A model generated the notes under the pieces. It did no database searches. It saw only the letters and a program-made list of their open reading frames with translations, and was not told the origin of the DNA. Below, piece by piece: positions 6,473 to 55,262 of a stretch of DNA of 64,000 nucleotides. The position numbers and the translations under genes were made by a program. Numbering within the stretch: the first letter of the stretch is position 1; the number at the start of each line of letters is the position of its first letter. The DNA comes from Prauserella salsuginis (lineage in GTDB: Bacteria > Actinomycetota > Actinomycetes > Mycobacteriales > Pseudonocardiaceae), in assembly GCF_024648885.1 (NCBI RefSeq), contig NZ_JANBBF010000014.1, forward strand, positions 124,001 through 188,000, given 5' to 3'.

Positions 6473-7401
6473 CAGGGATTCACCTTCTCTCGCACACCCG
6501 CGAACAGATCGTCCTCCGGAACGGTGCTGTCGACAAGCGAGCGGGCCAGCTCGTACTCCTCTGTCGGCCACAGTTCGCGCTGGGTCTCGAGCGGAACGGC
6601 GAACCACCGGCTCGTCGGATCGATCTGTGTCGCGTGTGCGCGCAGCGCGTCGTCACGCTGCTCGAAGCACTCGGAGCACGGCACCTGCGTGGTCACCCGC
6701 TCCATGATGTCCGGCTTGTCCGGGTCCCACCGCTCGAGCCACTCGGCCCACGGCGATTCCTGCCCCGCCTCGAGCAGCGCCTCGTGGAACGCGGTGATGC
6801 GGGCACGGGAGAAACCGTGCACGTAGTAGACCTTCAGCGCCTGCCACGGCTCGCCCGCGTCCGGGAACCGGTCCGGATCCGCGGCGGCGTCGAACGCGGC
6901 CATCGACACCTCGTGCGTGCGGATGTGGTCCGGGTGCGGGTAGCCGCCGTTCTCGTCGTAGGTGACCACGACGTGCGGGCGGAACTCGCGCATGACCCGC
7001 ACGAGCGCCTCGGTCGGCTCGTCCAACGGCACCCTGGCGAAGCAGCCTTCAGGGAGCGGCGGCAGCGGGTCACCCTCCGGCAGGCCCGAGTCGACGAAGC
7101 CGAGCCAGCGGTGCTGCACTCCGAGGATCTTCGCCGCGGTGGCCATCTCCTCGCGACGGATCTCGTCCATGTGCTCGTGCACCTCGGGGCGGTCCATCGC
7201 CGGGTTGAGCACGTCACCGGCCTCGCCACCCGTGCAGGTCACGACCATCACCTCGGCGCCCTCGGCGACGTACCGGGCCATGGTGGCCGCGCCCTTGCTC
7301 GACTCGTCGTCGGGATGGGCGTGCACGGCCATGAGCCGCAACCCCTTGCTCGCCTCCGCCTGCCCGGTGTCGACCGATCCAGTTCCGTTCGATCCAGTCA
7401 T
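6472..7401 (-). CDS. mca: mycothiol S-conjugate amidase
   Basis: A 309-residue zinc amidase of the PIG-L/LmbE fold. Mca cleaves mycothiol S-conjugates to a mercapturic acid and GlcN-Ins, which is detoxification of electrophiles and antibiotics in the cytoplasm. The zinc site is visible as AHPDDE (about 28-33) and HPDH (about 156-159), with [13 protein letters not shown] intact. Length and the [13 protein letters not shown] region fit Mca rather than the shorter MshB deacetylase. ATG 7401 was chosen; the frame extends upstream without homology. It is divergent from the DUF4307 gene and coupled to the downstream small membrane protein gene. Its presence shows that the organism makes mycothiol. 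Confidence 0.93.
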
Positions 7402-7633
7402 GACCGACCAGACCCCTCTCACACCTGTGCTGTATCCGCTGCTGTCCACTGCGGGGCCGACGTCCCGCCGCCGGCCCGCTTCCCGCGCCCCACTGCGCGG
7501 CCTCACCGGCGGGCCGAGACCGGCCTGCCGACCCCGAACCCGCGCGCGGCGGGCCTCCCCGGATACTCATAACGCCGGGGATGACATCCATCTTCCTGGT
7601 AGCCACGACAGTCCCGACCGGGAGGCCTCCGTT

Positions 7634-8128: not shown

Positions 8129-8217
8129 CGGCCAACGGAGTGAAACGCTCGCCGAGTGCCCGCCGGTAATTGTGCTGAGCGGCATTCGGTCCCGGTTTCG
8201 TGGTAGTCTTCATCATC

Positions 8218-13100: not shown

Positions 13101-13209
13101 GACTGTGACGACTCTCCCTCCGAGATCGGAGCTTCCGTGTATGTCGCGCGTGAGCATTGGGTACCCTGGAGCCGACCCAGGGGGACGAATCCACGACCGG
13201 AGGATCAGC

Positions 13210-13485
13210 ATGGCACGGCCGTCGGCACCGCGGGACGCACGCTCGCAGGGCCGTGTCACACCGCTGCTCGCCGGCATCGTGTCGGCCATGGCACTGGCCG
13301 GAGCGGCGGTGTTCACAGTGGGTTATGCCTCGTGCGGCGATCAGGGCCAGTACGTGCGCCACGCCGACAACGTGCAGTTCATCGGCGGTTGCGTGGACGG
13401 TGAGGACCTGCCCGCCACCGGTCCCGGCGAGCAGCACGGCCCGGCCGGCGGTAACGACGAGGCGCCCCGCAACTACCGGCCGTAG
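13210..13485 (+). CDS. small exported or membrane-anchored protein
   Basis: A 91-residue protein with a basic N-terminus (RDARSQGR), one hydrophobic helix (LLAGIVSAMALAGAAVFTVGYASC, about 19-42) and a hydrophilic extracytoplasmic tail with two cysteines (YASCGDQ and GGCVDGED) that could form a disulphide. GGAGG lies 6 bases before ATG 13210, which decides the start against longer frames. No family recognised. It stands alone between divergent ilvA and convergent metB. Confidence 0.7.
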   Translation: MARPSAPRDARSQGRVTPLLAGIVSAMALAGAAVFTVGYASCGDQGQYVRHADNVQFIGGCVDGEDLPATGPGEQHGPAGGNDEAPRNYRP

Positions 13486-13554
13486 CCATTACTGCCGCGC
13501 TCGCCCGGGCCACCGCGGCCGACGCCTGCGCCGCACCGACCCGGGCCACCAGTC

Positions 13555-42666: not shown

Positions 42667-44007
42667 TCAGGCGTTCCGGGCGGACAGGAAACGCTGCCTG
42701 CCGTCCGCGAGGTCGACAACCGGGCCCGGGTAGGTCAGCGCCCTGCGTTCGGGTACGGGCAGGTTCCACGGTTCATGCACCGCAGCGCCCGGAATGCAAT
42801 CCAACTCCGGAACGTACCGACGCACGTAGTCGCCCGACGGGTCGTACCGCATCGCCTGCCGGAGCGGGTTGAGCACACGGTTCGGCCGCGTGTCGGCCCC
42901 CGTACCGGCGACCCATTGCCAGTTCAGCTGGTTGTTGGCCACGTCGGCGTCGACCAGATGCTGCTGGAAGTGCCGTGCTCCTTCCCGCCAGTCCACATAC
43001 AGGGTCTTGGTCAGAAAGCTCGCCGTGATCATGCGGGCACGATTGTGCATCCAGCCTTCCCTGAGCAACTGGCGCATCCCGGCGTCGACGATCGGATAGC
43101 CAGTGCGGCCTTCCCGCCACGCGGCCAGTTCCTCGGGTGCATCACGCCACCGGTCACCGCGGGGCCGGTAGTCCTCACGCGCGGTACGTGGCCGGGCGGC
43201 CAACATCTGGTGGTGGAAGTCCCGCCAGGCGAGCTGTCTGCCGAACTCCCGCGCTCCCTGCGAGTCCCGACCCACCCGGTACAACACCTCCACCGGCGAG
43301 AGCGTGCCGAAGTGCAGGTGTGGGGAAAGCCGGGACGTGCGGTCGCCCGCCAGGTCGTCACGCCCGTCGGCGTAGCCGGCCACCGGACCGTCCACCCACT
43401 CGGACAGCAACGCGCGGCCGGTTCGCTCCCCGCCCTCGGCGAGCTCCGGAGCGGGCAGCCCTTCCCCGGACGCGACGTCGTGGAATCCCGCCGATTCGAC
43501 CTCCGGAATCGTGATCCGGGACGGCGGCGGCAGCGGAATCCGGCTCGCCGCGGTCTGCCACCGCCGCAGATACGGTGTGAAGACGGAGAAGTGATCACCT
43601 CCACCGGTAGGCGTGAGGGAGCCGGGCGCCGCGGCGGTGGTGACCGTTTCGTGGACGTGTACGCCGACGCCGGGTATCGCCTCCAGTCGGCCCTGCCTGC
43701 GCTGGGCGTAACCGCTGACATCCGCCGAGACGTGCACATCTGACACCCCGTGCTCGGCGATCAGCCGCGACACCTCCGTGACGGGGTCGCCGTGCCGCAC
43801 GATCAGCGCCCCGCCCAGGTCCCGAAGCGCATCGTCCAGGTCGGTCAGGCATCGGAGGAGAAACGCCGCGCGGTTCGGCGGCGTGGGCAGCTTCGGGTCG
43901 AGCACGAACAACGGCACGACCCTGTCGGCCCCGGCCACAGCGGCATACAGCATCGGGTTGTCGCTGACGCGCAGATCTCGGGTGAACAGCGCGATCGAGG
44001 TCCGCAT
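42667..44007 (-). CDS. phr: deoxyribodipyrimidine photolyase
   Basis: A 446-residue photolyase/cryptochrome-family flavoprotein that would repair cyclobutane pyrimidine dimers with light. The N-terminal Rossmann antenna domain starts SIALFTRDLRVSDNPML. The FAD-binding domain has TSRLSPHLHFGTLSP, GREFGRQLAWRDFHHQ-like sequence, EGWMHNRARM and NQLNWQWVAGTGADTRP, with DYVRRYVPEL near the end; these are class I CPD photolyase landmarks. Its ATG lies 20 bases after the rskA stop, so it is the last gene of the SigK operon. SigK control of a photolyase fits a light-stress response. Confidence 0.94.
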   Translation of the reverse strand: MRTSIALFTRDLRVSDNPMLYAAVAGADRVVPLFVLDPKLPTPPNRAAFLLRCLTDLDDALRDLGGALIVRHGDPVTEVSRLIAEHGVSDVHVSADVSGYAQRRQGRLEAIPGVGVHVHETVTTAAAPGSLTPTGGGDHFSVFTPYLRRWQTAASRIPLPPPSRITIPEVESAGFHDVASGEGLPAPELAEGGERTGRALLSEWVDGPVAGYADGRDDLAGDRTSRLSPHLHFGTLSPVEVLYRVGRDSQGAREFGRQLAWRDFHHQMLAARPRTAREDYRPRGDRWRDAPEELAAWREGRTGYPIVDAGMRQLLREGWMHNRARMITASFLTKTLYVDWREGARHFQQHLVDADVANNQLNWQWVAGTGADTRPNRVLNPLRQAMRYDPSGDYVRRYVPELDCIPGAAVHEPWNLPVPERRALTYPGPVVDLADGRQRFLSARNA

Positions 44008-44027: not shown

Positions 44028-44777
44028 TCAGGCGCGCAGGGACAGCAACATGAACGGGTCGGTGGTCGGCTGTGGCGACCCGCCCGTGGGTTCGGTCGTC
44101 ACACCGAGCTTCGCGGTACCGCCGGGCATGTCCGCCGTGACCGGCACGTCGCCGTCGGTCAGCACACCCATCGAGGTCGCTCCCTGCTCGTCGATGGCCC
44201 AGAGCTGGTGCACCTTGTCCTCGGGCGCGGCGGGCATGTGCTCACTCATGAACACGGCTTTGCCGAGGTCGGCCGACACGATCACGGTCGCCACCGCTCC
44301 TCCCTCGGAGGCATGGATGACCCGGGCGTCCGGGGCGTGCAGCACGCGGGCCATCTCGGCACCACGCGTACCCGCCTGCTCGATCCGCTGCCGCGCCTGG
44401 TCGAGTTCCTGCTGCGACTGCCACGCGGCGACACCGAACACGGCGGCCAGTCCGATCCCGACCACCGAGGCGGCCACCGCCAGCCGCGTCCCCCACCGGG
44501 ACGCCTCCCGCCTCTTCCGGGTGCCGATCGGCACCGGTTCGGCCATCGGCGGTTCCTGCCGGGTGTGTGCGATCTCGTGCAATACCCGGCCCTTCAGCTC
44601 CGCAGGTGGCTCCTCGGCGGCGGCGACGCCGAGCAGACCCGCCGTCTCCCGCAGCTCCCGCACTTCCTGCGCGCACTCCTCGCATTCGGCGAGATGGTGC
44701 TCGAACTCGGCGCGTTCCGGCCCGGTGAGCGCATCCACGGCGTAGGCGCCGGTGAGACTCGACATCTCGGTGCTCAT
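44028..44777 (-). CDS. rskA: anti-sigma-K factor RskA
   Basis: A 249-residue membrane anti-sigma factor. The N-terminal cytoplasmic domain (1-90) has H28-x3-C32-x2-C35 (EHHLAECEEC), a zinc-binding ZAS motif. One transmembrane helix (LAVAASVVGIGLAAVFGVAAW, about 98-118) is followed by a coil (QQELDQARQRIEQA) and the extracytoplasmic RskA domain (about 140-249) with KVHQLWAIDEQGATSMGVL. ATG 44777 overlaps the sigK stop (ATGA), so the two are coupled. Release of SigK is expected through regulated proteolysis from the outside; a redox or zinc-mediated signal is possible because of the cysteines. Confidence 0.92.
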   Translation of the reverse strand: MSTEMSSLTGAYAVDALTGPERAEFEHHLAECEECAQEVRELRETAGLLGVAAAEEPPAELKGRVLHEIAHTRQEPPMAEPVPIGTRKRREASRWGTRLAVAASVVGIGLAAVFGVAAWQSQQELDQARQRIEQAGTRGAEMARVLHAPDARVIHASEGGAVATVIVSADLGKAVFMSEHMPAAPEDKVHQLWAIDEQGATSMGVLTDGDVPVTADMPGGTAKLGVTTEPTGGSPQPTTDPFMLLSLRA

Positions 44778-45388
44778 GAGCCCACCCCCAGGCAATCGCG
44801 CAGGCGGATCAGCCCGTCCCGTAGGCGGGTCTTCACCGTGGCCATCGGCGATCCCACCAATTCGGCCGCCTCCCGGTAGGTGTATCCGCGGTAGTAGGTC
44901 AGCAGCACCGATTCCCGCTGCAGCTCGGTCAATGTGGACATACACCGGCGCACCTGGAGCTGTTCCAGGCGACCGAGCACAGACTCACTCACCTCGTCGA
45001 ATGCCCGGGCACCGGACCGGGAACCCACCTTGGCCTCGCGGTCGGCCGCAGACTGTTCGGATCGCACCCGGTCCACCGCGCGACGATGTGCGAGGGTCAG
45101 CACCCAGGTCATCGCACTGCCCTTGTCGGGGCGATAGTGCGTCGCGGTGCGCCACACCTCGACGAGCACCTCCTGGGTGACCTCCTCGGACTGCGCGGCG
45201 TTCCGGAGCAGGCGCCGCACGAGCCCGAAAACCGGCCTGGCGATCACCTCGTAGAGCTGGTCGAACGCCGCCTCGTCGCCCTTGGCGACCTCGGCCAGCA
45301 GGGCGCGCGCGTCCGGGGCCGGCTGCGGGTCGGCCGACCAGCCCGGCGGCCGCTCGGCGCGTTGCGGCTCCTCGTCCACACCGATCAA
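44774..45388 (-). CDS. sigK: ECF sigma factor SigK
   Basis: A 204-residue group 4 sigma factor. Region 2 (about 30-105) contains FDQLYEVIARPVFGLVRRLLRN and the DNA-melting DKGSAMTWVLTLAHRRAVDRVR; region 4 (about 140-200) contains LTELQRESVLLTYYRGYTYREAAELVGSPMATVKTRLRDGLIRLRD. The extended start MIGVDEEPQ from 45388 matches SigK proteins. It lies between the CFA-type methyltransferase (41-base gap) and rskA. Four promoter-like sites in this region share a pattern close to that reported for mycobacterial SigK. It probably autoactivates the whole operon. Confidence 0.93.
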   Translation of the reverse strand: MIGVDEEPQRAERPPGWSADPQPAPDARALLAEVAKGDEAAFDQLYEVIARPVFGLVRRLLRNAAQSEEVTQEVLVEVWRTATHYRPDKGSAMTWVLTLAHRRAVDRVRSEQSAADREAKVGSRSGARAFDEVSESVLGRLEQLQVRRCMSTLTELQRESVLLTYYRGYTYREAAELVGSPMATVKTRLRDGLIRLRDCLGVGS

Positions 45389-45429: not shown

Positions 45430-46713
45430 TCAGCGACGTGCGGCCTTGTGCAGGCCGAACTGCCAGACGTCGAGGTAACCGGAGCGGAAGCCCGCCTCGC
45501 TGTATGCGAGGTAGAACTCCCACACCCGCGGCAGCGCTTCGCCCAGCTCGAGCTCGGCGACGTCGGCGTGCCGCTCGGCGAGCCGCTCCCGCCAGCACCG
45601 CAGGGTCTCCGCGTAGCCGGGCCCGAAGCAGCGCCGCTCGGCCAGGGTCATACCGGTGTTCACCTCGACATTGCGTTCCACAACCCGCACCGAGGGCAGC
45701 AGCCCGCCCGGAAAGACGTACTTGTGGATCCAGGTGTATGAGTCGCGAGTTGCCAGCAACCGATCATGCGGCATCGTGATCGCCTGGACGCTCGCCCGGC
45801 CGCCGTCAGCCAGCAGCCGGTCCAGCGTGGCGAAGTAGGACGGCCAGTACTCCCAGCCGACCGCCTCGATCATTTCGATGCTGACCACGGCGTCGTAGCG
45901 GCCGTCGACCTCCCGGTAGTCGCGGAGCTGCACATCGACGACGTCGCCCAATCCAGCGGCCCGCACCCTCTCGACGGCGAGTCTCCGCTGCTGCTCCGAC
46001 AACGTGATGGTCGTGACCCTGGCACCGCGGCGCGCAGCGCGCATCGCCAGGGACCCCCACCCGGTGCCGATCTCCAGCATCCTCGTGCCCGCCCGGACTC
46101 CCGCCAGATCGAGCATCGAGTCGAGTTTTGACAGCTGTGCGGCTTCGAGGTCGCCGCCGGGCTCGAGGGGTGCACCCGAGTAGGTCATCGTCTCGTCGAG
46201 GAAGCCGGCGAAGAACTCGTTGGACAAATCGTAATGGCGGTGAATGTTGCTGCGTGCGCCGGAAACGGTGTTGCGCTCGGACTCCGGCCGCGTGGCGTCC
46301 ACCCAACGCCGCAGGACCTGCAACGGCGCCGGGACCAGGCTGGGCAACTGCGCCGCGAACCGGGTCAGCAGCTCGGTGAGTTCGGGACTCGACCAGTCCC
46401 CGGCGAGATACGCCTCCCCGAAACCGATCTTGCCGTCCACTCCGAGGCGATGGAAGAACTCCGTCGGCCGCTCGATGCGCATCAGGGGCGCCGCGGGACC
46501 GCCTGCGCCGAGCCGCTCCCCGCCCGCGAGTGCGATGCGGACCGGCAGCCTGCGGACCGCGTGCCGGAAGAGCCTGCCGGCCGCGGCGGCACGCAACGGC
46601 GCGTGCGGTGCACAGGGAACGTCCTGCCACGGCGACATCGGTCGCGCGGCAACCGTGTCGGAGGAAACCTCATGGAATCCAGCGTTGTGGGGTCCGGCGT
46701 CGGTGGTACTCAT
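45430..46713 (-). CDS. SAM-dependent fatty-acid methyltransferase (CFA synthase/UfaA1 type)
   Basis: A 427-residue cyclopropane-fatty-acid-synthase-family enzyme. The SAM-binding motif is RMLEIGTGWGSLA (about 211-223); IHRHYDLSNEFFAGFLDETMTYS (about 157-179) is the signature of the family, and MIEAVGWEYWPSYF and PGGLLPS follow. It would methylate or cyclopropanate unsaturated acyl chains in membrane lipids. ATG 46713 overlaps the DUF1365 stop (ATGA), and AGGAG is 5 bases upstream. The M. tuberculosis homologue in the same context is ufaA1 (Rv0447c). Product (cyclopropane, methyl or furan precursor) is unknown. Confidence 0.92.
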   Translation of the reverse strand: MSTTDAGPHNAGFHEVSSDTVAARPMSPWQDVPCAPHAPLRAAAAGRLFRHAVRRLPVRIALAGGERLGAGGPAAPLMRIERPTEFFHRLGVDGKIGFGEAYLAGDWSSPELTELLTRFAAQLPSLVPAPLQVLRRWVDATRPESERNTVSGARSNIHRHYDLSNEFFAGFLDETMTYSGAPLEPGGDLEAAQLSKLDSMLDLAGVRAGTRMLEIGTGWGSLAMRAARRGARVTTITLSEQQRRLAVERVRAAGLGDVVDVQLRDYREVDGRYDAVVSIEMIEAVGWEYWPSYFATLDRLLADGGRASVQAITMPHDRLLATRDSYTWIHKYVFPGGLLPSVRVVERNVEVNTGMTLAERRCFGPGYAETLRCWRERLAERHADVAELELGEALPRVWEFYLAYSEAGFRSGYLDVWQFGLHKAARR

Positions 46714-47447
46714 CGGTTCTCCTGACGGCGCCGTGGACGGCGCGGGGTGATCGGAACTCTCCGCAGCCACAGCGCCACGCCGTGGCGACGGATCGATGTG
46801 GAAACCCGTTGCGGCACAAGCGGTCTGCGCAGCAGCATGCTCACCAGTACACGTTCGGTCGCGGGGCTGCGGGTCCCGGTCATGGTGGCGCTGAGCAACC
46901 GTTTCCCCGCGTCGCCCAGCTCGATCCGAATCGCCAGCCGCTCGCCCGGCCGCGGCAGCCGCATGCGATAGCGGCCGTGATCGGGCAGAAACGGTGACAC
47001 GTAGAGCTGTTTGTCCGCCTCGGCGCGGCCGCCCGGGTCCGGCGACAGCAAATAGCGATGCCGCTGCCCGTAGGTGTTGTGCACCTCCGCGACCACGCAG
47101 GCCTGCTCGCCGTCGGGGAAATGGCACCAGTAGACCGTGATCGGGTTGAACACGTGACCCAGCACCCTGGCGTGCGCGAGCATCAGCACCCGGCCGCCCT
47201 CCAGGTGCACGCCGTGAGCGGCGAGCCACCGATCGAGGTCGCGGCGGATCGGTTCGCCTTTCGTTCCGAGGTGGTCGCGCGCGTCGAAGCCGGCGAACGG
47301 GCGCAACCACCACGGCAGCCGCGGCAGCCGGTCCAGGTCGACGAGCCAGACGTAGAGGTGGTGGCGGAACGAACGGACTAGGCCGGTATGGCGGGTGTGC
47401 GTCACCACGGCGTCGTAGAGCGCGGGCGCGGTCACGGCGAACCCCAT
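46710..47447 (-). CDS. DUF1365 protein
   Basis: A 245-residue protein with the DUF1365 landmarks: YDAVVTHTRHTGLVRSFRHHLYVWLVDLD at the start, GRVLMLAHARVLGHVFNPITVYWCH (about 83-107), EVHNTYGQRHRYLL, and QLYVSPFLPDHGRYRM. The family is found almost always beside a CFA-type methyltransferase and an FAD oxidoreductase and seems to help lipid modification; no reaction is established. It overlaps the FAD-oxidoreductase gene by 16 bases and the methyltransferase gene by 4, so all three are translated as one unit. Confidence 0.9.
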   Translation of the reverse strand: MGFAVTAPALYDAVVTHTRHTGLVRSFRHHLYVWLVDLDRLPRLPWWLRPFAGFDARDHLGTKGEPIRRDLDRWLAAHGVHLEGGRVLMLAHARVLGHVFNPITVYWCHFPDGEQACVVAEVHNTYGQRHRYLLSPDPGGRAEADKQLYVSPFLPDHGRYRMRLPRPGERLAIRIELGDAGKRLLSATMTGTRSPATERVLVSMLLRRPLVPQRVSTSIRRHGVALWLRRVPITPRRPRRRQENR

Positions 47448-48703
47448 CCCGCACCGAGGTTCTCGGCGACCCGTACCCCGGAGGCGCAGCCATCCTCGTG
47501 GAATCCCCAGCCGTGGTACGCACCTGCGAAGCTGACGCGATCGTCGCCGAGTTCGTGAAGTCTGCGCTGCGCGGCGACGGAATCACGGGTGTAGATCGGA
47601 TGTCGATAGGTCGGTGCGGCGATGACCGTCCGCGGGTCGACCCGCCCGACATCGCCGAGCGTGACGATGTAGTCCTCGGGCTCGGCGAGCTGCATCAGCC
47701 TGTTCATGTCATAGCTGACCCGGACCTCGTCCGTCCCCGCCGCACACGAAGGTTTCCAGTAGTTCCACGACGCCCGCGCACGCCGGGACGACGGCACCAG
47801 TCGCGCGTCGGTGTGCAGCACGGCCTGGTTCTGCGAGTACTCGAACGCACCGAGCACCTCCCGTTCGGCAGGCGTCGGTGCCGCGAGCATGGCCAGCGCG
47901 TCGTCGGCATGGGTGGCGATCACCGCGTGGGCGACCTCGTGTACCCGATCGCTCCCGTCGCGCACGTCGACTCCGCGCGCGGACCGCCGCACCGAGCGCA
48001 CCGGTGTGGCCACTCGCACCGCCGGGAGCTGCTTGCCGATGCGATCGACGTAACTCCGCGAACCACCGACGACGGTGCGCCAGGCGGGCGACCCGCCGAC
48101 CGACAGCATGCCGTGGTTGCGCAGGAACTCGAACAGGTAGCGGGCCGGGTACCGCAGGCTGGTGTCCGGCCCGGCCGACCACACCGCGGACACCAGCGGA
48201 ACCGCGAAATGGTCGACGAAGTAGCGCGAGTAGCGGCCGTCGGCGAGGAAGGTGCCGAGTGTCGGGTGGTCATCAGCGCCCACGTCCAGCAGCTCGTTCG
48301 CGCTCCGGTGGAACCTGCGTACCTGCGCGAGCAGCCGTAGGTAAGCCGGGCGAGCCAGGTTCGATGGCTCCGCGAACAGCCCGTCGAAACCCTTCGCGCC
48401 GGCATACGTCAGTCCGCATTCGACGCAGCTGACGCTCATCGACATCTCCGTGCCCTGCGTGGACACCCCGAGCTCGTCGAACAGGCGCGTCAGATTGGGG
48501 TAGGTGCGATCGTTGTGCACGATGAATCCGCTGTCCACCGCGATCGCCCTGCCACCGGCCGCGACGACGTCGTGCGTTTGGGCGTGGCCGCCGAGCCGAT
48601 CGTCGGCGTCGAACAGCACTACTCGGTAACGACGGCTCAGCAGATAGGCGGCGGTCAGCCCGGACACCCCGGCACCGATCACGGCCACGGTCGGTTCGGT
48701 CAT
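47432..48703 (-). CDS. FAD-dependent oxidoreductase (flavin amine oxidase-like), first gene of SigK operon
   Basis: A 423-residue flavoprotein. N-terminal dinucleotide-binding GAGVSGLTAAYLL (about 9-21), GGHAQTHDV and VDSGFIVHNDRTYPNL are typical of the NAD(P)/FAD-dependent proteins that accompany DUF1365 and CFA genes (M. tuberculosis Rv0449c). The C-terminal FAD contact is FAGAYHGWGFHEDGCASG. It probably desaturates or oxidises fatty-acyl chains. GGAGG is 5 bases before ATG 48703; a longer frame is not needed. The SigK-type promoter at 48845-48872 lies 140 bases upstream and should drive the entire operon down to the photolyase. Confidence 0.9.
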   Translation of the reverse strand: MTEPTVAVIGAGVSGLTAAYLLSRRYRVVLFDADDRLGGHAQTHDVVAAGGRAIAVDSGFIVHNDRTYPNLTRLFDELGVSTQGTEMSMSVSCVECGLTYAGAKGFDGLFAEPSNLARPAYLRLLAQVRRFHRSANELLDVGADDHPTLGTFLADGRYSRYFVDHFAVPLVSAVWSAGPDTSLRYPARYLFEFLRNHGMLSVGGSPAWRTVVGGSRSYVDRIGKQLPAVRVATPVRSVRRSARGVDVRDGSDRVHEVAHAVIATHADDALAMLAAPTPAEREVLGAFEYSQNQAVLHTDARLVPSSRRARASWNYWKPSCAAGTDEVRVSYDMNRLMQLAEPEDYIVTLGDVGRVDPRTVIAAPTYRHPIYTRDSVAAQRRLHELGDDRVSFAGAYHGWGFHEDGCASGVRVAENLGAGWGSP

Positions 48704-48844
48704 GCCGCCCTCCAGTTCCTCGTCCGGAACGGAACACGACCGCACGACCGGTCACCGTGGGCCGGGGACGCAGCAACACCGGGCGGTGGAGCCGTGCCGT
48801 CGGGCGCTGCCCGGGACTCCGGTTCAGCGATGTGCATGCCCGTC

Positions 48845-48872
48845 ATTCGGAGCCGCTCCGCGAAGCGATTGC
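48845..48872 (-). promoter_or_regulatory. SigK-type promoter of the FAD oxidoreductase-to-photolyase operon
   Basis: On the minus strand: GCAATC (48872-48867), 16 bases, CCGAAT (48850-48845). Spacing and sequence match three other sites in this cluster. The 5' leader would be about 135 bases. Confidence 0.7.
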
Positions 48873-48900
48873 CGATGTGACGACGCGCACATATACGCGG

Positions 48901-48928
48901 GCGATCCGCCACGACCCCGGCTCCGAAT
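48901..48928 (+). promoter_or_regulatory. SigK-type promoter facing DUF1295
   Basis: GCGATC (48901-48906), 16 bases, CCGAAT (48923-48928). It is back to back with the minus-strand promoter, the two -35 boxes being 28 bases apart. It leaves a leader of about 190 bases before ATG 49126, in which I see no gene. Confidence 0.6.
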
Positions 48929-49125
48929 GCTCGATATGGGCATTGCGACAGCCGACATCGCGATCGGGGAGACGCCGCCCGCCTACTCGAGGGCGAGGTC
49001 TCCCGGGCGCGGCGTCCGGCGGGTGGGGCAGTCGTCTCCGGGCAGTACAGGCCGGGCGTAGACCGGATGCCCGCCGTGGAGCTGGACGGAACCGGCGGCA
49101 CGACCGCGATCCGGGAGGGGGCCCG

Positions 49126-49905
49126 ATGAACCTGGTGGCCGCCGCAGCGCTCGCACTCGGTGTGGCGTTGCTCGTCGTCGTGGTCACCTTCGGTGTCGCA
49201 CGGTTGCGGGGCCGCTACGACACGATCGATACCGCCTGGGGCGCCGGATTCGCAGTGATCGCAGCCGTCGGCTTCGCCGCCGACCCGACCGATGCCGGCA
49301 GTCCGCTGCTGGCGACGGTTCTGGTCATCGTCTGGGGCATCCGACTGTCGGTGCACCTTCACCTACGCAACGCCGGGCAGGGCGAGGATCACCGTTACCG
49401 GGCGATGTCGGCACGGGCGAGATCGCATCCAGGGGCGCGGATGTTCTTCCGTACGTACCTGACCCAGGCGGGGGTGATGTGGTTCGTCTCGCTCCCGGTG
49501 GTCTTCGCACAGCAACGGCCGGCCGAGATCGGTGTGCTCGGCATTCTCGGCGCGCTGGTGTGGTGCGTCGGGTTGACCTTCGAAGCGGTTGGCGACGAGC
49601 AGCTGCGGAGGTTCACCGCGGACCCGGCGAACAAGGGGCGAGTGCTCGATCGAGGGCTGTGGCGCTACACCCGGCATCCGAACTACTTCGGCGACGCCTG
49701 CGTGTGGTGGGGGCTGTACCTGATCGCCGCCCAGCAGCCGCCCGGTGCCGCGACGGTGCTCTCCCCGGTACTGATGACCTGGCTGCTCGCCCGCGGCACC
49801 GGAAAGCCGATGACGGAACGTCGGCTGCGGGAAACCCGGTCCGGCTACCCCGACTACGTCTCCCGGACAAGCGGTTTCCTCCCTCTACCGCCCAAGAAAG
49901 GCTGA
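49126..49905 (+). CDS. DUF1295 membrane protein (steroid-reductase-like)
   Basis: A 259-residue protein with about six membrane helices and the DUF1295/ICMT-like core: RYDTIDTAWGAGFAVIA, GEDHRYRAM, FRTYLTQAGVMWFVSLPV, and near the end GRVLDRGLWRYTRHPNYFGDACVWWGLYL (about 181-209), the conserved NAD(P)H/substrate segment of the family. GGAGGGGG precedes ATG 49126. In M. tuberculosis the homologue (Rv0446c) lies inside the SigK cluster; here it is divergent from the main operon and has its own SigK-type promoter. It probably reduces or otherwise modifies a lipid. Confidence 0.9.
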   Translation: MNLVAAAALALGVALLVVVVTFGVARLRGRYDTIDTAWGAGFAVIAAVGFAADPTDAGSPLLATVLVIVWGIRLSVHLHLRNAGQGEDHRYRAMSARARSHPGARMFFRTYLTQAGVMWFVSLPVVFAQQRPAEIGVLGILGALVWCVGLTFEAVGDEQLRRFTADPANKGRVLDRGLWRYTRHPNYFGDACVWWGLYLIAAQQPPGAATVLSPVLMTWLLARGTGKPMTERRLRETRSGYPDYVSRTSGFLPLPPKKG

Positions 49906-49913
49906 CCCCGCAA

Positions 49914-49941
49914 CCAATCGTCGGCCGCATCGGAAACGAAT
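49914..49941 (+). promoter_or_regulatory. SigK-type promoter giving a leaderless transcript
   Basis: CCAATC (49914-49919), 16 bases, ACGAAT (49936-49941). The -10 ends 7 bases before ATG 49949, so transcription should start at the start codon. No Shine-Dalgarno sequence is present. It lies between the DUF1295 stop and the next gene. Confidence 0.75.
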
Positions 49942-49948
49942 CATCGGT

Positions 49949-51664
49949 ATGTCAACTCCAACGGCCGCTCGCCGGCCCGGTGCGCTCCGCGCGATGTTCG
50001 CGAGCATTTCCGCGGTGGCGTTCGCCCTCGGTATCGGGCATCTGACGTCGGGACTCACCCAGCCGAACGCGTCGCCGTACCTCGCCGTCGGCAACACCGC
50101 GATCGACCTCACGCCGGAGCCGGTGAAGCAGTTCGCCATCCGACAGTTCGGCGATTCGGACAAGCTCGTCCTGCTCGGCGGTATGGGTGTGGTGATCCTG
50201 CTGCTCGCGGTGGTCGCCGGGGTGCTTTCACGGCGCACCGCCACGCCCGGCCTCGCGGTGATCGGAGCGTTCGGCGCGATCGGGGTGATCGCCGCGTTGT
50301 TACGCCGCGACCTGACCGCCCTCGACACGCTTCCCGCCGTTGCGGCTTTGGTGTCCGGCATCGGAGCGTTCGGGGGGCTCCACCGGCTCGCTTCGCGTTC
50401 GGCGGCGCCGATCCGCCCACGCGGCCACAAGGCCACGGGCGAACACACCGACCGCGACGCCGGCACCGGTTCAGCGGACTCCGTACCCAGCGGCGCCGAC
50501 GAGGAGAGCGGCTCCGAGGAGCACGGTTCCGGCCGCGCGGCCGATTCGCGAACAAGCAGGGACCGAGGTCCGGACGGCGATGCGACGGTGGTTGCGGCCA
50601 CGGCCGCATCGCGGCGAACGTTCGTACTCGCGGTGGCCGGCGTCGCGGCGGCCGCCGGCGGAGCCGCGGCCGGCGGGCGGCTGCTCGCGAACCGATCCGG
50701 AGTGGATGCGGCCCGCACCGAGGTCGGACGCCTCGTTCCGGCCAATCCGCCCGTCCCGCGCGGTGCGGACTTCGCTTCGCAGGGAACGCCGTCGTTCATC
50801 ACCCCGAACAAGGATTTCTACCGGGTCGACACCGCGCTGTCCGTGCCCGGGATCCGACTGGACGACTGGCGGCTGCGCATCCACGGCATGGTCGACCGGG
50901 AGCTGACGCTCGACTTCGACGGTCTGATCACTCGAAGGATCGAACAGCGGACCATCACGATGACATGCGTGTCCAATCAGATCGGTGGCGATTACGTGTC
51001 GACCGCGACGTTCACCGGCGTCCCGATTCGGGATCTGCTCGACGAGGTCGGCGTCCGAAACGGCGCCGAGCAGGTGTTCAGCACGAGTGTGGACGGCTAC
51101 ACCGCAGGCACGCCATTGGATGTACTGCGCGAGGCCGATCGCGGCGCACTCCTCGCCTACGGAATGAACGGCGAAGCGCTGCCCGTCGAGCACGGTTTCC
51201 CGGTGCGAATGGTGACGCCGGGCCTCTACGGCTACCTGTCGGCGACCAAATGGCTCGTCGACATGGAGCTGACGACATTCGACAAACAGACCTACTGGGA
51301 GCAGCGCGGCTGGGCCGAACGCGCGCCGATCAAGACACAGTCCCGAATCGACCGCCCGCAGCCGTTCCAGAAGTTCCCCGCCGGGAAGTTCACCCTCGCC
51401 GGTGTCGCATGGGCGCAACCCACCGGCGTCGAACGGGTCGAGGTGCGGGTGGACGGTGGCCCGTGGCAGCAGGCCGAGCTCTCCACGGAGGTCAACGAAC
51501 AGACCTGGCGGATGTGGCGGGCGGAGCTCGAGTTCGCACCGGGCGGACACGACATCGAGTGCCGCGCCACGGACGCTTCCGGCTACACCCAGCAGTCTCG
51601 TCGGGTACCGACGGTGCCGGACGGTGCGACGGGTTGGCACTCGATCTTCTGCACCGCCACCTAG
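49949..51664 (+). CDS. membrane-anchored molybdopterin oxidoreductase (sulfite-oxidase family)
   Basis: A 571-residue protein. N-terminal membrane domain with about four helices (about 15-35, 72-92, 101-118, 128-146), a charged variable linker (150-215), then a fifth helix preceded by SRRTFVLAV (about 221-229), a Tat-like pattern. The molybdopterin domain (about 280-460) has the Mo-ligand Cys at about 340 in TMTCVSNQIGGD; a dimerisation/Ig-like domain (about 475-560) follows. It is expected outside the membrane, where it could oxidise sulfite or reduce oxidised Met or other sulfur compounds. SigK-type promoter, leaderless ATG. Confidence 0.9.
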   Translation: MSTPTAARRPGALRAMFASISAVAFALGIGHLTSGLTQPNASPYLAVGNTAIDLTPEPVKQFAIRQFGDSDKLVLLGGMGVVILLLAVVAGVLSRRTATPGLAVIGAFGAIGVIAALLRRDLTALDTLPAVAALVSGIGAFGGLHRLASRSAAPIRPRGHKATGEHTDRDAGTGSADSVPSGADEESGSEEHGSGRAADSRTSRDRGPDGDATVVAATAASRRTFVLAVAGVAAAAGGAAAGGRLLANRSGVDAARTEVGRLVPANPPVPRGADFASQGTPSFITPNKDFYRVDTALSVPGIRLDDWRLRIHGMVDRELTLDFDGLITRRIEQRTITMTCVSNQIGGDYVSTATFTGVPIRDLLDEVGVRNGAEQVFSTSVDGYTAGTPLDVLREADRGALLAYGMNGEALPVEHGFPVRMVTPGLYGYLSATKWLVDMELTTFDKQTYWEQRGWAERAPIKTQSRIDRPQPFQKFPAGKFTLAGVAWAQPTGVERVEVRVDGGPWQQAELSTEVNEQTWRMWRAELEFAPGGHDIECRATDASGYTQQSRRVPTVPDGATGWHSIFCTAT

Positions 51665-51695
51665 CAACATTTTCCTGGTTTTTCCACTTCGGACA

Positions 51696-51723
51696 CCAAT
51701 CGATCCGGGCGGCGGCTTCGAAT
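51696..51723 (+). promoter_or_regulatory. SigK-type promoter of the fasciclin lipoprotein gene
   Basis: CCAATC (51696-51701), 16 bases, TCGAAT (51718-51723), leaving a 45-base leader with AAGGAG before ATG 51774. Confidence 0.75.
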
Positions 51724-51773: not shown

Positions 51774-52463
51774 ATGAGGACCATCCGTCGGCAGGTCGTG
51801 GTGACCGGTGCGGTCGCCGCACTCGCACTCGGGCTGAGCGCGTGCGGTGGCGCCGAGGACACCGCGGACCAGGGCGAGCAGGGCGGTGGCCAGGATCAGG
51901 CATCGTCGTCGGCTCCGCCGAGCTCGTCCGGCAACGGAGGCATGAACGCCGGTATGACCACCGCCGACGACGTCTTCGGACCCGGCTGCTCCCAGGTGCC
52001 CACAGACCCGAACGACGAGGGTTCCGTGCAGGGCATGGTCGACGATCCGGTCGGCACGGCCGCGAGCAACAACCCCCTCCTGACGAAGCTCACCGCCGCG
52101 GTCAAGGCCGCAGGTCTGGTGGACACGCTGAACAAGCAGGACGCGAACTACACCGTGTTCGCACCCGCCGACCCCGCGTTCGGGGCCATCCCGGCCGACC
52201 AGCTCGACGCGCTGCTGAACGACCCCGAGAAGAAGGACGACCTCACCAAGACCCTCACCTTCCACGTCGTACCTGAACGCATGGACGCCGCCGGGCTCGT
52301 GGAGGCGGGTTCGGTCGAGAGCGTCGAGGGTGGCGACGTGAAGATCGGCGGCACTGCCGACGCTCCGACGGTCAACGGAGCGAAGGTGCTGTGCGGCAAC
52401 GTGCCGACGGCCAACGCCACCGTCTTCGTCATCGATGAGGTGCTGCAGCCCGGGAAGCAGTGA
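51774..52463 (+). CDS. fasciclin-domain lipoprotein, MPT83/MPT70-like
   Basis: A 229-residue lipoprotein: signal peptide with lipobox LSACGG (Cys about 24), a Gln/Ser/Gly linker (25-65), then one fasciclin/beta-Ig-H3 domain (about 90-229) with NPLLTKLTAAVKAAGL, ANYTVFAPADPAFGAIP and KVLCGNVPTANATVFVIDEVL. Mpt83 and Mpt70, its mycobacterial relatives, are the best known SigK targets, and a SigK-type promoter is present here. It should sit on the outer membrane face or wall; the role may be adhesion or scavenging. AAGGAG precedes ATG 51774. Confidence 0.92.
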   Translation: MRTIRRQVVVTGAVAALALGLSACGGAEDTADQGEQGGGQDQASSSAPPSSSGNGGMNAGMTTADDVFGPGCSQVPTDPNDEGSVQGMVDDPVGTAASNNPLLTKLTAAVKAAGLVDTLNKQDANYTVFAPADPAFGAIPADQLDALLNDPEKKDDLTKTLTFHVVPERMDAAGLVEAGSVESVEGGDVKIGGTADAPTVNGAKVLCGNVPTANATVFVIDEVLQPGKQ

Positions 52464-52577: not shown

Positions 52578-53081
52578 TCATTCGACGTCCTCCTGCAGTC
52601 GTGTTCGGACAGTCGTGGTCGCGCGGATGCTGGCCGTCAGGAACCGGACGATCGTGTCGCGTTCGTCGGCGTCGAACGACGACCAGGCTCGCTCCAGCTC
52701 CGCGCCGAGTGGCCGGAACAGCTCGTCCCCGAGTCGCCACGTCGTCTCCGGCAGCTGGAGTTCGATCCGCCTGCCGTCGTTCGCACTCCGGCGTCGCCGG
52801 GCGTGCCCAGCGGTCTCCAGGCGGTCGAGCACCGCGGTGGTCGCGGAAGCGCTCAGCTGCAGCGCCCTGGCCAGCTCTCCGGGCGAGATCGAATCGCCCC
52901 CGCGGACAGCGTCCATGATCACCACGAGAGCGTTGAGGTCCGTCCGGTACAACCCGTGTGCCTCACCGAACATCTCCGCGAACCGATCGGTCTCCACGTT
53001 CAGCTGGCGCAACAGACGAATCAGCACGGCGTCCGGATCCTCGGGATCCGACAGGCCACTTGCGGTTTCCCCGTCCACCAT
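52578..53081 (-). CDS. MarR family transcriptional regulator
   Basis: A 167-residue winged-helix regulator. DNA-binding core about 55-110: LNALVVIMDAVRGGDSISPGELARALQLSASATTAVLDRLETAGHARR, with the wing RRSANDGRRIELQLPET. The C-terminal helices form the dimer. ATG is 53081 on the minus strand; the MMPL gene starts 90 bases away in the other direction, so it probably represses that transporter. TTTGACGATCGAAA (53122-53135) in the gap has a TTTCGATC/TCGAAA-like dyad and could be its site. Confidence 0.88.
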   Translation of the reverse strand: MVDGETASGLSDPEDPDAVLIRLLRQLNVETDRFAEMFGEAHGLYRTDLNALVVIMDAVRGGDSISPGELARALQLSASATTAVLDRLETAGHARRRRSANDGRRIELQLPETTWRLGDELFRPLGAELERAWSSFDADERDTIVRFLTASIRATTTVRTRLQEDVE

Positions 53082-53168
53082 GCGCTACCTCCTCGCTGCC
53101 GCCGCTGTTCAGGCAATGTAGTTTGACGATCGAAATACCCTGCGGGCACGGTGACCGGGAGCCTCACG

Positions 53169-55262
53169 ATGAGACCTGATGGCCATGATGAAGCCGATGG
53201 CAGAGTGCGGCGCCGTCGCATCCTGCGATGGTTGACCCCCGCACTGTTGATCATCATCTGGCTCATCGTTGGCGGAGTGGGCGGACCGTTCGCGGGCAAA
53301 CTGAGTGAGGTCGCCGAGAACGACAACGCCGCGTTCCTGCCCGAGACGGCCGAGTCGACCAACGTCGCAGCACTCGAGCGCAAGTTCACCGACGACGAAT
53401 CGGTGCCCGCCATCGTCGTCGCCGAACGAACCGCCGATGTGACACGCGCCGACCGACGGTTCCTCGCCGAGACGTCCGCGGAGTTCACCGAGATACCCGG
53501 CGTGCCGGGTGAACTTCCGCCGCCCATCCCCTCCGACGACGGTCGGGCTCTGCAACTGGTGGTGCCGATCGCCGCCGACGTCGCACCCGACACCGCTGTC
53601 GAGCAGATCCGCGAGCTGCTGGCCTCCGACCGACCCGAAGGCCTGACGGTGCTCGTCACCGGGCCCGCGGCGCTCGGCGCCGACCTGGGAGAAGCCTTCG
53701 GGGGCATCGACGGGCTCCTGCTGCTCGTCGCGGGCTCGGTCGTCGCACTCATCCTGATCCTGGTCTACCGCAGTCCGCTCCTGCCGGTCCTGGTGCTGCT
53801 GTCCGGTGTGTTCGCGCTGGGACTAGCCAGTCTGGTCGTGTATCTGCTGACCGACCACGGCGTCATCGACCTCAACGGGCAGAGCCAGGGCATCCTGTTC
53901 ATCCTGGTGTTCGGTGCCGCGACCGACTACGCGCTGCTGCTGGTTTCCCGGTACCGGGAGCAGTTGCGGGACTCGGACGACCGCCTGGCCGCGATGGCGG
54001 CCGCGTGGAAGGCGACCATCGAGCCGATCGCGGCATCGGCCGGCACCGTGATCCTCGGCGTACTCTGCCTGCTCTTCAGCGACCTCCGGTCCAACCAGGG
54101 CCTCGGCCCGGTAGCCGCGATCGGCATCGGCTCCGCTCTGGTCGCGGCAACGACGTTCCTGCCGGCCGTGCTCGCCGTGTTCGGCCGGTCGGCGTTCTGG
54201 CCGTACCGGCCGAAACTGGGCCCACCCCATCCCGAGGAGAGCGGCTTCTGGCGGCGGATCGCGGCCCGGGTGGGCTCGTCACCACGGCTGATCTGGGTGG
54301 CCACCACTGTGGTGCTGCTTGTGGGAGCGGCATTCCTCCCGCAGCTGCGCGCTTCCGGCACCGCCGAGTCCGACGTCTTCCTGAACGAGGTGGACTCGGT
54401 CGCCGGCCAGGAGGTCCTGAGCGAACATTTCGTCGCGGGTTCGGGCAGCCCGGCCGTGATCATCAGCGACGCGGACCGGGTGGCCGACGTGGCAGCCGCG
54501 GCACAGGTCGACGGCGTTTCCGAGGTCTCGATCACGACCGGCCCGAACGGCAAGCCCCGGACGGAAGGCGGATTGACCCGTATCGAGGCGACCCTCTCCG
54601 ATCCGGCCGACTCGGAATCGGCCGTCGCCACCGTGGAGCGACTGCGCAACGCCGTGCACGCGGTGCCGTCCGCCGATGCGAAGGTCGGCGGACGCACCGC
54701 GACCCTCCTCGACACGCAGAACATCTCGGAGCGCGATCGCACTCTGATCGTGCCCATAGTGCTGGTGGTGATCTTCGCGGTGCTCGCGCTGCTGCTGCGC
54801 TCACTGCTGGCGCCGCTGCTGCTGATCGCGACGGTCGTGCTGTCGTTCGCCGCGACCATGGGCGTTTCCGCTCTCGTGTTCAACCACATACTGGACTTTC
54901 CCGGTGCCGATCCCGTCGTGCCGCTGTTCGGGTTCGTGTTCCTCGTCGCGCTCGGCATCGACTACAACATCTTCCTCATGACCAGAGTCCGGGAGGAAAC
55001 GCTCCGGCGGGGCACCAGGGCCGGTGTCCAGCGCGGCCTGACGGTCACCGGTGGTGTCATCACCTCCGCCGGGGTCGTACTGGCCGCCACTTTCGCGGCC
55101 CTGGCGGTGCTGCCGATCCTCTTCCTCGCGCAGATCGCGTTCGTCGTCGCGTTCGGCGTTCTGCTCGACGCCCTGATCGTGCGGTCGCTCCTCGTCCCGG
55201 CCCTGGCCATCGACATCGGCGGGCGCATCTGGTGGCCGTCGCGGCTGCGGGAACGCGACTGA
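53169..55262 (+). CDS. MMPL family transporter (RND)
   Basis: A 697-residue RND-type permease with about 11-12 helices: one at 20-40, five at about 180-345 and six at about 375 and 530-685. SQGILFILVFGAATDYALLLVSRYRE (about 240-265) and the second-half FLVALGIDYNIFLMTRVREE (about 597-616) are the paired MMPL motifs with proton-relay Asp residues. GGGAG is 7 bases before ATG 53169; GTG 53151 is in frame. Substrate probably a lipid or hydrophobic drug. Divergent MarR gene. An mmpL gene also lies near the SigK lipid genes of M. tuberculosis (Rv0450c). Confidence 0.9.
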   Translation: MRPDGHDEADGRVRRRRILRWLTPALLIIIWLIVGGVGGPFAGKLSEVAENDNAAFLPETAESTNVAALERKFTDDESVPAIVVAERTADVTRADRRFLAETSAEFTEIPGVPGELPPPIPSDDGRALQLVVPIAADVAPDTAVEQIRELLASDRPEGLTVLVTGPAALGADLGEAFGGIDGLLLLVAGSVVALILILVYRSPLLPVLVLLSGVFALGLASLVVYLLTDHGVIDLNGQSQGILFILVFGAATDYALLLVSRYREQLRDSDDRLAAMAAAWKATIEPIAASAGTVILGVLCLLFSDLRSNQGLGPVAAIGIGSALVAATTFLPAVLAVFGRSAFWPYRPKLGPPHPEESGFWRRIAARVGSSPRLIWVATTVVLLVGAAFLPQLRASGTAESDVFLNEVDSVAGQEVLSEHFVAGSGSPAVIISDADRVADVAAAAQVDGVSEVSITTGPNGKPRTEGGLTRIEATLSDPADSESAVATVERLRNAVHAVPSADAKVGGRTATLLDTQNISERDRTLIVPIVLVVIFAVLALLLRSLLAPLLLIATVVLSFAATMGVSALVFNHILDFPGADPVVPLFGFVFLVALGIDYNIFLMTRVREETLRRGTRAGVQRGLTVTGGVITSAGVVLAATFAALAVLPILFLAQIAFVVAFGVLLDALIVRSLLVPALAIDIGGRIWWPSRLRERD

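Follow-up and report, generated by a model that had tools for sequence, protein, structure and literature searches.

Four probable SigK-type promoters in a gene cluster of Prauserella salsuginis that encodes its own SigK-RskA pair

A cluster of lipid, photolyase and fasciclin genes in Prauserella salsuginis carries closely similar sites upstream of its transcription units, and this raises the question of whether these sites are promoters and, if so, which sigma factor reads them. We analyzed a stretch of 64,000 nt (GCF_024648885.1, contig NZ_JANBBF010000014.1, positions 124,001-188,000, forward strand), referred to below as the window. A preliminary description had picked out four sites by eye, likened them to mycobacterial SigK promoters and joined the genes behind them into one local regulon. 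All four are indeed present at the coordinates and on the strands given there, and they are the only matches in the window to the pattern SCRATC-N17-CGAAT (see table).

Judged by profile matches, a SigK-class sigma factor and an anti-sigma factor of the RskA class are both encoded in the cluster itself. In a structure search the best hit of the former was M. tuberculosis SigK (4nqw, 157.2 bits, versus 73.6 for RpoE, 2q1z), and its Cys149 and Cys199 align to the redox cysteines C133 and C183 of that protein. The RskA protein contains a zinc-type HX3CX2C motif (HLAECEEC). The reading frames of sigK and rskA overlap at ATGA, and the photolyase gene follows rskA after a gap of 20 nt as the last gene of an apparent minus-strand operon, with the order FAD oxidase, DUF1365, cyclopropane-type methyltransferase, sigK, rskA, photolyase. 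On the plus strand, the molybdopterin oxidoreductase (mo) has a long N-terminal extension. The fasciclin lipoprotein (fas) matches MPT70 (1nyo) in the PDB with an E value of 2.7e-30, the top-scoring entry being human TGFBI, which shares the fasciclin domain.

Table. Sites and genes of the cluster, in window coordinates
Feature	Position	Strand	Remarks
SigK-type promoter GCAATC-N16-CCGAAT	48845..48872	-	heads the minus operon; hold-out rank 2 in the window
SigK-type promoter GCGATC-N16-CCGAAT	48901..48928	+	upstream of DUF1295; hold-out rank 3 in the window
SigK-type promoter CCAATC-N16-ACGAAT	49914..49941	+	molybdopterin oxidoreductase gene; hold-out rank 4 in the window
SigK-type promoter CCAATC-N16-TCGAAT	51696..51723	+	fasciclin lipoprotein gene; rank 1 in the window and the genome
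DNA photolyase	42667..44007	-	PF03441, 249.8 bits; PF00875, 132.9 bits
RskA anti-sigma factor	44028..44777	-	PF10099, 94.6 bits (cut-off 29.4)
SigK, ECF sigma factor	44774..45388	-	NF007228, 269.4 bits (cut-off 226)
Cyclopropane-fatty-acid-synthase-type methyltransferase (UfaM-like)	45430..46713	-	PF02353, 266.5 bits
DUF1365 protein (UfaO-like)	46710..47447	-	PF07103, 219.9 bits
FAD-dependent amine-oxidase-type enzyme (UfaD-like)	47432..48703	-	PF01593, 78.2 bits
Putative leaderless 45-codon ORF	48700..48837	-	between the minus promoter and the FAD gene; ATG 7 nt past the -10
DUF1295 / steroid-reductase-like membrane protein	49126..49905	+	PF06966, 230.2 bits
Sulfite-oxidase-type molybdopterin oxidoreductase (mo)	49949..51664	+	PF00174, 147.4 bits, residues 297-450
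Fasciclin-domain lipoprotein, MPT83/MPT70 type (fas)	51774..52463	+	PF02469, 105.9 bits

Shuffled sequence and a genome scan had been named as checks in the preliminary description, and both outcomes favor the sites. Dinucleotide shuffles of the window (n = 100) gave 0.18 matches on average and never reached four. The whole genome (5,641,633 bases) contains 17 matches, four of them in the cluster, and none to the reversed pattern. The probability of at least four matches within a 2,879-base span, calculated from the 13 off-cluster matches, is about 8e-11 for a pattern that was itself picked by eye; tests independent of that pattern serve as the correction for this choice.

All pairs of a 3-mer and a 4-mer separated by a gap were searched in 165 upstream regions from 80 SigK loci and the window. 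The two best pairs of the pooled set were AAT-N18-CGAA, found in 64 of the 165 regions (1.2 expected), and ATC-N17-CGAA, found in 74 (1.8 expected); in upstream regions of fas only or of DUF1295 only, other pairs outrank both. An expectation-maximisation motif, seeded from a pair search of this kind, was trained on the regions preceding mo, fas, sigK and fad (the FAD enzyme gene), 123 in number, with the genus of the window excluded. It placed the four sites at ranks 1-4 in the window (29.6, 26.2, 23.5 and 21.4, the fifth match scoring 15.8). A matrix built from 121 sites of other genera again ranked them 1-4 among 127,944 positions (27.3, 23.7, 22.8 and 20.6; fifth 15.1), with a maximum of 8.5 for the reversed matrix; this test is partly circular because the training sites were picked with a near copy of the original pattern. 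The fifth match of this matrix (6868-6895) lies antisense within a long coding frame and was dropped. That the four sites are chance look-alikes spotted by eye in GC-rich DNA is hardly conceivable, and we reject it: the pattern was defined post hoc with some positions left free, but the shuffles fall far below four matches, motif learning free of the pattern and of the genus puts the same positions on top, which refutes a chance origin, and 16-spaced sites are kept at cluster genes in 64 of 81 loci of the family and in 34 of 37 loci from seven other families.

On the genome scale, a separate sequence model (R1) was applied to 150 of 18,561 first-look candidates. Three cluster sites took ranks 1-3 (18.7, 17.5 and 17.0 bits), and no off-cluster site among those scored exceeded 13.5 bits, which fits the proposal of one local regulon, with the caveat that the mo site also falls below 13.5. 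With 10.3 bits and rank 26 among these candidates, the mo site is the weakest point by sequence, and it is its position and its conservation that support it. Eight of the 13 off-cluster exact matches were scored with the 121-site matrix and gave values from 6.0 to 16.1. Flanking genes were checked by a rough GC-frame rule for these eight and for seven related-pattern loci. Three off-cluster sites precede coding-like frames, for a GntP permease (L004, 27 nt ahead of the likely gene, score 6.0), an AraC-type protein (L006, 13.8) and a MerR-type protein (L007, 72 nt, 7.7), whereas the cluster sites score 20.6 to 27.3; they are kept as candidates, and none is claimed as a further SigK target.

The distribution of the sites in relatives was studied with a threshold of at least 10 of 11 positions and a spacer of 15-17, counts including the window. 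Sites were found at mo in 17 of 22 loci, at fas in 18 of 26, at fad in 16 of 35 and at sigK in 38 of 81, compared with one of 28 at cfa and none of five at phr, the operon-internal controls. The lack of a site at the other 19 fad loci is partly explained by another gene heading the operon there. A recognisable mo or fas site was present in 20 of 22 SigK genomes, the exceptions being G017 and G023. Among 30 mo loci, a fas site was seen in 17 of the 18 SigK genomes whose locus includes fas, versus one of six SigK-less ones (Fisher p 0.0008). In one genome (G013) the fas site is kept though mo and fas lie more than 1 Mb from sigK. Relatives thus often retain a site at each of these genes, also at a distance from sigK, and most SigK-less genomes are without them.

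Taken together, the evidence makes it very probable that the four sites serve as promoters for the SigK-RskA pair of their own cluster. The alternative that they are real but recognized by a different ECF sigma factor, alone or alongside SigK, seems improbable to us. Specificities of ECF sigma factors can overlap. Two or three SigK-like genes are present in several genomes, and one SigK-less genome (G153) retains a full mo site, with weaker matches in two others (G059 and G043). Against this, a SigK search of the P. salsuginis genome gave a single match at E <= 1e-40, and the sites mostly accompany SigK. The SigK-less congeners G067, G116 and G133 show no match above 14.9 bits, but the best match is similarly low in some genomes with SigK: 13.5 (G117), 14.8 (G149) and 15.1 bits (G176).

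Of the four promoters assigned to SigK, the one at DUF1295 shows the lowest conservation at the gene it now precedes: it stands directly upstream of DUF1295 in only two of 30 loci, window included, at the same threshold. A plus-strand site in the interval between fad and DUF1295 is nevertheless found in 24 of 29 loci (also with the window), and in 26 of 29 this interval harbors a second CFA-like methyltransferase gene, of which the 48901 site is the divergent promoter in other genera. The site at DUF1295 therefore looks inherited and is best explained as the former promoter of a methyltransferase gene lost in the P. salsuginis lineage. It might even be a relic without function at DUF1295, leaving three promoters that matter, as its association with the second CFA-like gene elsewhere and the 197 nt separating it from the DUF1295 start would allow. 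We regard this as unlikely: the site still ranks third in both window and genome and its extended -10 is intact. In Prauserella isguenensis most of the lipid genes and most of DUF1295 are deleted. There the plus promoter has decayed, whereas the adjoining minus promoter keeps a full pattern match and is identical at 27 of 28 bases; through the deletion it has come to lie some 0.4 kb upstream of sigK. This single case suggests that the plus site is under selection where DUF1295 survives.

At three of the four window sites an ATG begins exactly 7 nt past the -10, which suggests leaderless mRNAs. The same distance was observed at 15 of 17 mo, 16 of 21 fad and five of seven duf1365 sites; the rule fails at fas (one of 29), cfa2 (none of seven) and most sigK sites (10 of 52). 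The mo transcript is thus probably leaderless. At the minus promoter the ATG would open a putative short ORF whose TGA overlaps the ATG of the FAD gene. A frame of 44-45 codons with the same ATG spacing occurs in all four genomes of the genus group that have SigK, but a clear amino acid likeness is confined to the window and P. isguenensis.

From these features we infer that the sites are active promoters, that they depend on SigK and where their transcripts start, and propose the following model. Release by RskA would free SigK to transcribe four units. Since the minus operon includes sigK and rskA, SigK probably drives its own operon (the ufaD-, ufaO- and ufaM-like genes, sigK, rskA and photolyase) and would rise together with its own inhibitor. 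It would transcribe DUF1295 divergently, from the promoter inherited from the lost methyltransferase gene, as well as mo, probably as a leaderless mRNA, and the MPT83-type fasciclin lipoprotein.

What such a regulon is for can be addressed with much less certainty than the promoter assignment. The likeliest role, which we favor tentatively, would be the protection of membrane lipids, exported proteins and DNA from light-driven and oxidative damage. The FAD-DUF1365-CFA order is that of ufaD-ufaO-ufaM, with identities to the Azospirillum operon of 44% (AZL_RS28305), 39% and 44% (AZL_RS28315). In Rhodopseudomonas palustris RPA2571-2569 are named ufaD, ufaO and ufaM (PMC7380195). The gene set resembles the RpoE-ChrR (ECF11) singlet-oxygen response of Rhodobacter sphaeroides, where a sigma/anti-sigma pair also stands over ufaD, ufaO, ufaM and photolyase (PMC6852236, PMC7074977, PMC7380195). 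On Azospirillum pAB510d the same three genes lie divergent to a sigma-ChrR-type pair. In contrast to RpoE-ChrR, the window sigma is SigK-class, and the fasciclin and molybdopterin targets are extra. The window anti-sigma factor matches RskA_C and gave no match to a cupin domain of the ChrR type, while the Azospirillum anti-sigma has Cupin_7. In Rhodobacter capsulatus the RpoE/ChrR pair is called nearer to M. tuberculosis SigK/RskA; photo-oxidative stress induces this SigK-RskA-like pair (log2 3.7 and 3.4), and the organism is described as being without RSP_1090/1091 homologs (PMC7074977).

By analogy, the SigK-RskA regulon may be an actinobacterial counterpart of the alphaproteobacterial singlet-oxygen response, a suggestion that we make with caution. 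Light or reactive oxygen would free SigK, which would switch on furan-fatty-acid synthesis (ufaD-ufaO-ufaM), photolyase and the extra-membrane pair of molybdopterin oxidoreductase and fasciclin protein. Feedback of the resulting lipids on the release by RskA is conceivable, by analogy with the effect of furan fatty acid genes on ChrR. If this is true, MPT70/MPT83, the fasciclin antigens, would have been left over from a response to photo-oxidative stress. The regulon could instead answer general envelope or thiol stress, its lipids being cyclopropane or 10-methyl rather than furan fatty acids, and this possibility deserves serious weight. A cell-envelope-active compound raises SigK regulon genes of M. 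tuberculosis (PMC5547695), and M. tuberculosis UfaA1 is reported to have made 10-methylstearate in vitro (PMC5660069). The redox cysteine pair of SigK would also suit thiol stress. In M. kansasii, light induces mpk83/mpk70, which speaks for a light response, but by only 6- and 3-fold, and dipZ, with a predicted SigK site, is not light-regulated (PMC9861118). Against envelope or thiol stress stand the gene set and order, ufaD-ufaO-ufaM plus photolyase, which match the Rhodobacter singlet-oxygen set. A search of the open-access literature, with most subscription papers outside it, returned no link of SigK to photolyase, furan lipids or Pseudonocardiaceae.

Among the closest known systems is the mycobacterial one. 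As the reference motif we used CCCATC-N16-CCGAAT, taken from the Mycobacteriaceae SigK loci examined here, where it heads a fad or DUF1365 unit, and compared it with the CCATCC/CCGAAT elements quoted in the preliminary description. The -10 core (CCGAAT) and the spacing are the same, whereas the -35 is CCAATC in the cluster versus CCCATC in mycobacteria. Position 3 is A at three cluster sites and G at one; of 18 Mycobacteriaceae sites, 17 have C there, and the match is not letter-for-letter. With SigK and RskA encoded in the cluster and the motifs agreeing bar one -35 base, the proposed SigK-type resemblance is supported. We dropped an assignment of the SigK residue that reads A or C at position 3: some residues do correlate with the base, yet the correlation is confounded by lineage, and the simplest residue rule is contradicted by families f11 and f13. 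The gene order in M. tuberculosis is FAD/DUF1365/CFA/sigK/rskA. SigK, RskA, a fasciclin lipoprotein target and an autoregulated operon of this composition, the last two predicted for the cluster, are common to the cluster and the mycobacterial SigK-RskA regulon (mpt83/mpt70 and the Rv0449c unit; PMC7509140, PMC5547695). The P. salsuginis cluster differs from it in the photolyase ending the operon, the divergent DUF1295 and the putative molybdopterin oxidoreductase target, and its RskA keeps the HX3CX2C motif, which is absent in all 13 scored Mycobacteriaceae RskA proteins. The hold-out motif may serve as a tool for a search of SigK targets across Actinobacteria, and a compact non-mycobacterial cluster with photolyase and a furan-lipid-type operon offers a simple testbed for what SigK senses. 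By its sequence features, the cluster is a further instance of the known SigK regulon.

All four SigK-type sites proposed in the preliminary description are present at the coordinates and on the strands claimed for them (see the table). Four matches to the pattern were found in the window against 0.18 expected, and none of 100 shuffles of the window reached four; the whole genome contains 17 matches, including these sites. Since the pattern had originally been picked by eye, the sites were additionally tested without it. In 165 pooled upstream regions the top pairs of a 3-mer and a 4-mer separated by a gap were AAT-N18-CGAA (64, expected 1.2) and ATC-N17-CGAA (74, expected 1.8); when the fas (fasciclin lipoprotein) and DUF1295 upstream regions were taken singly, other pairs outranked them. 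The motif grown from such a pair seed, with 123 regions as input and the window's genus excluded, had the consensus gCCAATCCGg...CgGCtCCGAAt and placed the four sites at ranks 1–4 in the window (scores 29.6 to 21.4; next hit 15.8). An identical top four was given by a matrix from 121 sites, whose training sites were picked with a near copy of the original pattern. Under a sequence model trained on 60 sites that came from other genera, ranks 1–3 of the whole genome went to three of the four (18.7, 17.5 and 17.0 bits; next 13.5), and the site of the molybdopterin oxidoreductase gene (mo) ranked 26 with 10.3 bits.

Features of the SigK cluster in the window
Feature	Position	Strand	Remark
FAD oxidase gene (fad)	47432–48703	-	first gene of apparent operon
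DUF1365 gene	46710–47447	-	
CFA-type methyltransferase gene (cfa)	45430–46713	-	
sigK	44774–45388	-	NCBIfam score 269.4, cut-off 226
rskA	44028–44777	-	
Photolyase gene (phr)	42667–44007	-	
DUF1295 gene		+	
Molybdopterin oxidoreductase gene (mo)		+	
Fasciclin lipoprotein gene (fas)		+	
GCAATC-N16-CCGAAT	48872–48845	-	precedes fad
GCGATC-N16-CCGAAT	48901–48928	+	precedes DUF1295
CCAATC-N16-ACGAAT	49914–49941	+	precedes mo
CCAATC-N16-TCGAAT	51696–51723	+	precedes fas
45-codon frame	48700–48837	-	possibly leaderless
Two genes after fas	52578–55262		

The six minus-strand genes overlap or are located at most 41 nt apart, and therefore look like one operon. The window RskA contains HX3CX2C, known as the zinc-type anti-sigma motif; it was found in 77 of 77 scored proteins of the family and in none of 13 scored Mycobacteriaceae proteins. 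Among the RskA proteins of the window and of loci L039–L225, it is missing outside Mycobacteriaceae solely in one of the two scored proteins of family f3. The closest PDB entry to the window SigK is M. tuberculosis SigK, and the alignment shows that both redox cysteines, described as redox-dependent (PMC7509140), are retained.

The window's genome also carries a second molybdopterin oxidoreductase copy (51% identical; G000:C6:105684-107378), where the lists of genome pattern matches, related-pattern matches and best model hits contain no site. The two genes following fas, which encode a MarR-type regulator and an MmpL-type transporter, are kept in the two Prauserella relatives; the 14 top-scoring matrix hits of the window all lie elsewhere.

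SigK homologues were revealed in 100 of 200 family genomes (E ≤ 1e-40). The analysis covered 80 SigK loci, none longer than 20 kb, some of them shorter at contig ends and some genomes contributing two or three. With the window included, sites matching at 10/11 bases or better with spacers of 15–17 were found upstream of mo (17/22), fas (18/26), fad (16/35), DUF1295 (2/30) and sigK (38/81, a total that takes in operon-internal sigK genes and paralogs); the control regions gave 1/28 for cfa and 0/5 for phr. A 16-spaced site of this quality is located at a cluster gene in 64 of 81 family loci, and in 34 of 37 extra loci picked from SigK search hits, 17 from Mycobacteriaceae and 20 from six other families of the order (absent in L198, L200 and L219). 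The spacer is 16 bases long at 141 of the 156 sites that match at 10/11 bases or better, ties being settled in favour of 16. Position 3 of the -35 element varies by lineage (A in 78/91 family sites, C in 17/18 Mycobacteriaceae sites), and conservation extends to positions unused in site choice, e.g., a CG that follows ATC and a GGC ahead of the -10 element. Together with the SigK and RskA genes in the cluster, this conservation supports the earlier interpretation of the sites as SigK-type promoters.

Among 21 scanned genomes the best SigK-type site (22.8 bits) was that of P. alba at position 8197 of locus L226 (G095:C3:48196-48223). For approximately 340 nt behind it there is no coding-like frame, and by eye an inverted repeat lies downstream; perhaps it drives a small RNA. 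In relatives (L228, L240, L255, L253) SigK-type sites also precede genes for an EmbC-type arabinosyltransferase, family-2 glycosyltransferases and a DUF4383 protein.

In the 30 best-matching mo loci of the 173 genomes with a match, a mo or fas site (10/11 or better) was present in 20 of 22 SigK genomes versus three of eight SigK-less ones, namely G153 (full match), G059 and G043 (both weaker). For the fas site alone the figures in this set were 17/18 versus 1/6 (p = 0.0008), and for full-match fas sites 16/18 versus 0/6. The fas site is present even in G013, where mo–fas lies >1 Mb from sigK. This co-occurrence is supportive but not proof, since what matches mo in SigK-less genomes may be a paralog. 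Three SigK-less genomes of the window's genus (G067, G116, G133) gave no model hit >14.9 bits; the best hits of the SigK-bearing G149 (14.8) and G117 (13.5) likewise fall below this value.

Among sites with 16-base spacers, ATG or GTG is located exactly 7 nt past the -10 element at mo (15/17), fad (16/21) and DUF1365 (5/7); the rule fails at fas (1/29), cfa2, the second CFA-like gene (0/7), and most sigK sites (10/52). Three of the window's four sites are followed by an ATG at this distance. Because of this exact spacing we infer that transcription from such sites would be leaderless. The ATG of the minus promoter opens the 45-codon frame, whose TGA overlaps the ATG of the FAD oxidase gene (ATGA); within the genus group, all four genomes that carry SigK have a frame of 44–45 codons at the same offset.

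Among 29 loci of divergent layout, cfa2 is located between fad and DUF1295 in 26 (domain checked in one locus); it is absent from the window, P. alba and L041. A plus-strand site (10/11 or better) lies within the fad–DUF1295 interval in 24 of the 29, a few perhaps by chance in intervals of up to 5 kb, and a divergent pair precedes cfa2 in four of five Mycobacterium or Mycobacteroides loci. In the window and P. alba cfa2 is gone and the plus promoter now faces DUF1295, which supports inheritance of this promoter from the lost gene. In P. isguenensis (L039, G033:C1:1682898-1702506) most of the FAD/DUF1365/CFA operon and most of DUF1295 are deleted, and the plus site has decayed (spacer 15, -10 altered). 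The minus promoter is preserved about 0.4 kb ahead of sigK and agrees with that of the window at 27 of its 28 bases; mo and fas also retain intact sites. In this single natural case, retention of the minus promoter may be read as selection for SigK autoregulation.

Photolyase genes were found within eight of 118 SigK loci and within five of the 11 loci L274–L284 (Streptomyces, Mycobacterium or Mycobacteroides). A plasmid of Streptomyces sp. NBC_00158 (L293) carries a FAD-DUF1365-CFA-DUF1295 operon with a SigK-type site at 7591 (score 27.1), adjoining a MerR protein (12517–13548) with B12-binding domains, a domain type also present in light sensors of the LitR/CarH kind. The first three operon genes of the window match ufaD-ufaO-ufaM in the same order; according to PMC7380195, Rhodobacter and Rhodopseudomonas use these genes to synthesize furan fatty acids. 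On an Azospirillum plasmid the same gene order (44, 39 and 44% identity to the window genes) adjoins a sigma–ChrR-type pair. According to PMC6852236 and PMC7074977, the RpoE-ChrR regulon of R. sphaeroides includes furan-lipid genes and photolyase, and full RpoE activation needs the furan-lipid genes. For R. capsulatus, PMC7074977 reports a photo-oxidatively induced sigma/anti-sigma pair nearer to SigK-RskA and no RSP_1090/1091 homologs. Light modestly raises mpk83 and mpk70 in M. kansasii, yet dipZ, with a predicted SigK site too, does not rise (PMC9861118), and RskA drops under UV in Nesterenkonia (PMC8965627). Taken together, the gene match, these parallels, the light data and the photolyase genes make a photo-oxidative role of the regulon plausible but unproven; a response to envelope or thiol stress instead remains as an alternative.

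The four-site system is thus supported as a member of the SigK regulons, already known as a kind. As far as the accessible literature shows, the following are new: (i) a compact local regulon with photolyase, (ii) the CCAATC form of the -35 element, (iii) the putatively leaderless spacing, (iv) a promoter apparently inherited from a lost gene, and (v) a testable link to the furan-lipid, light-stress response.
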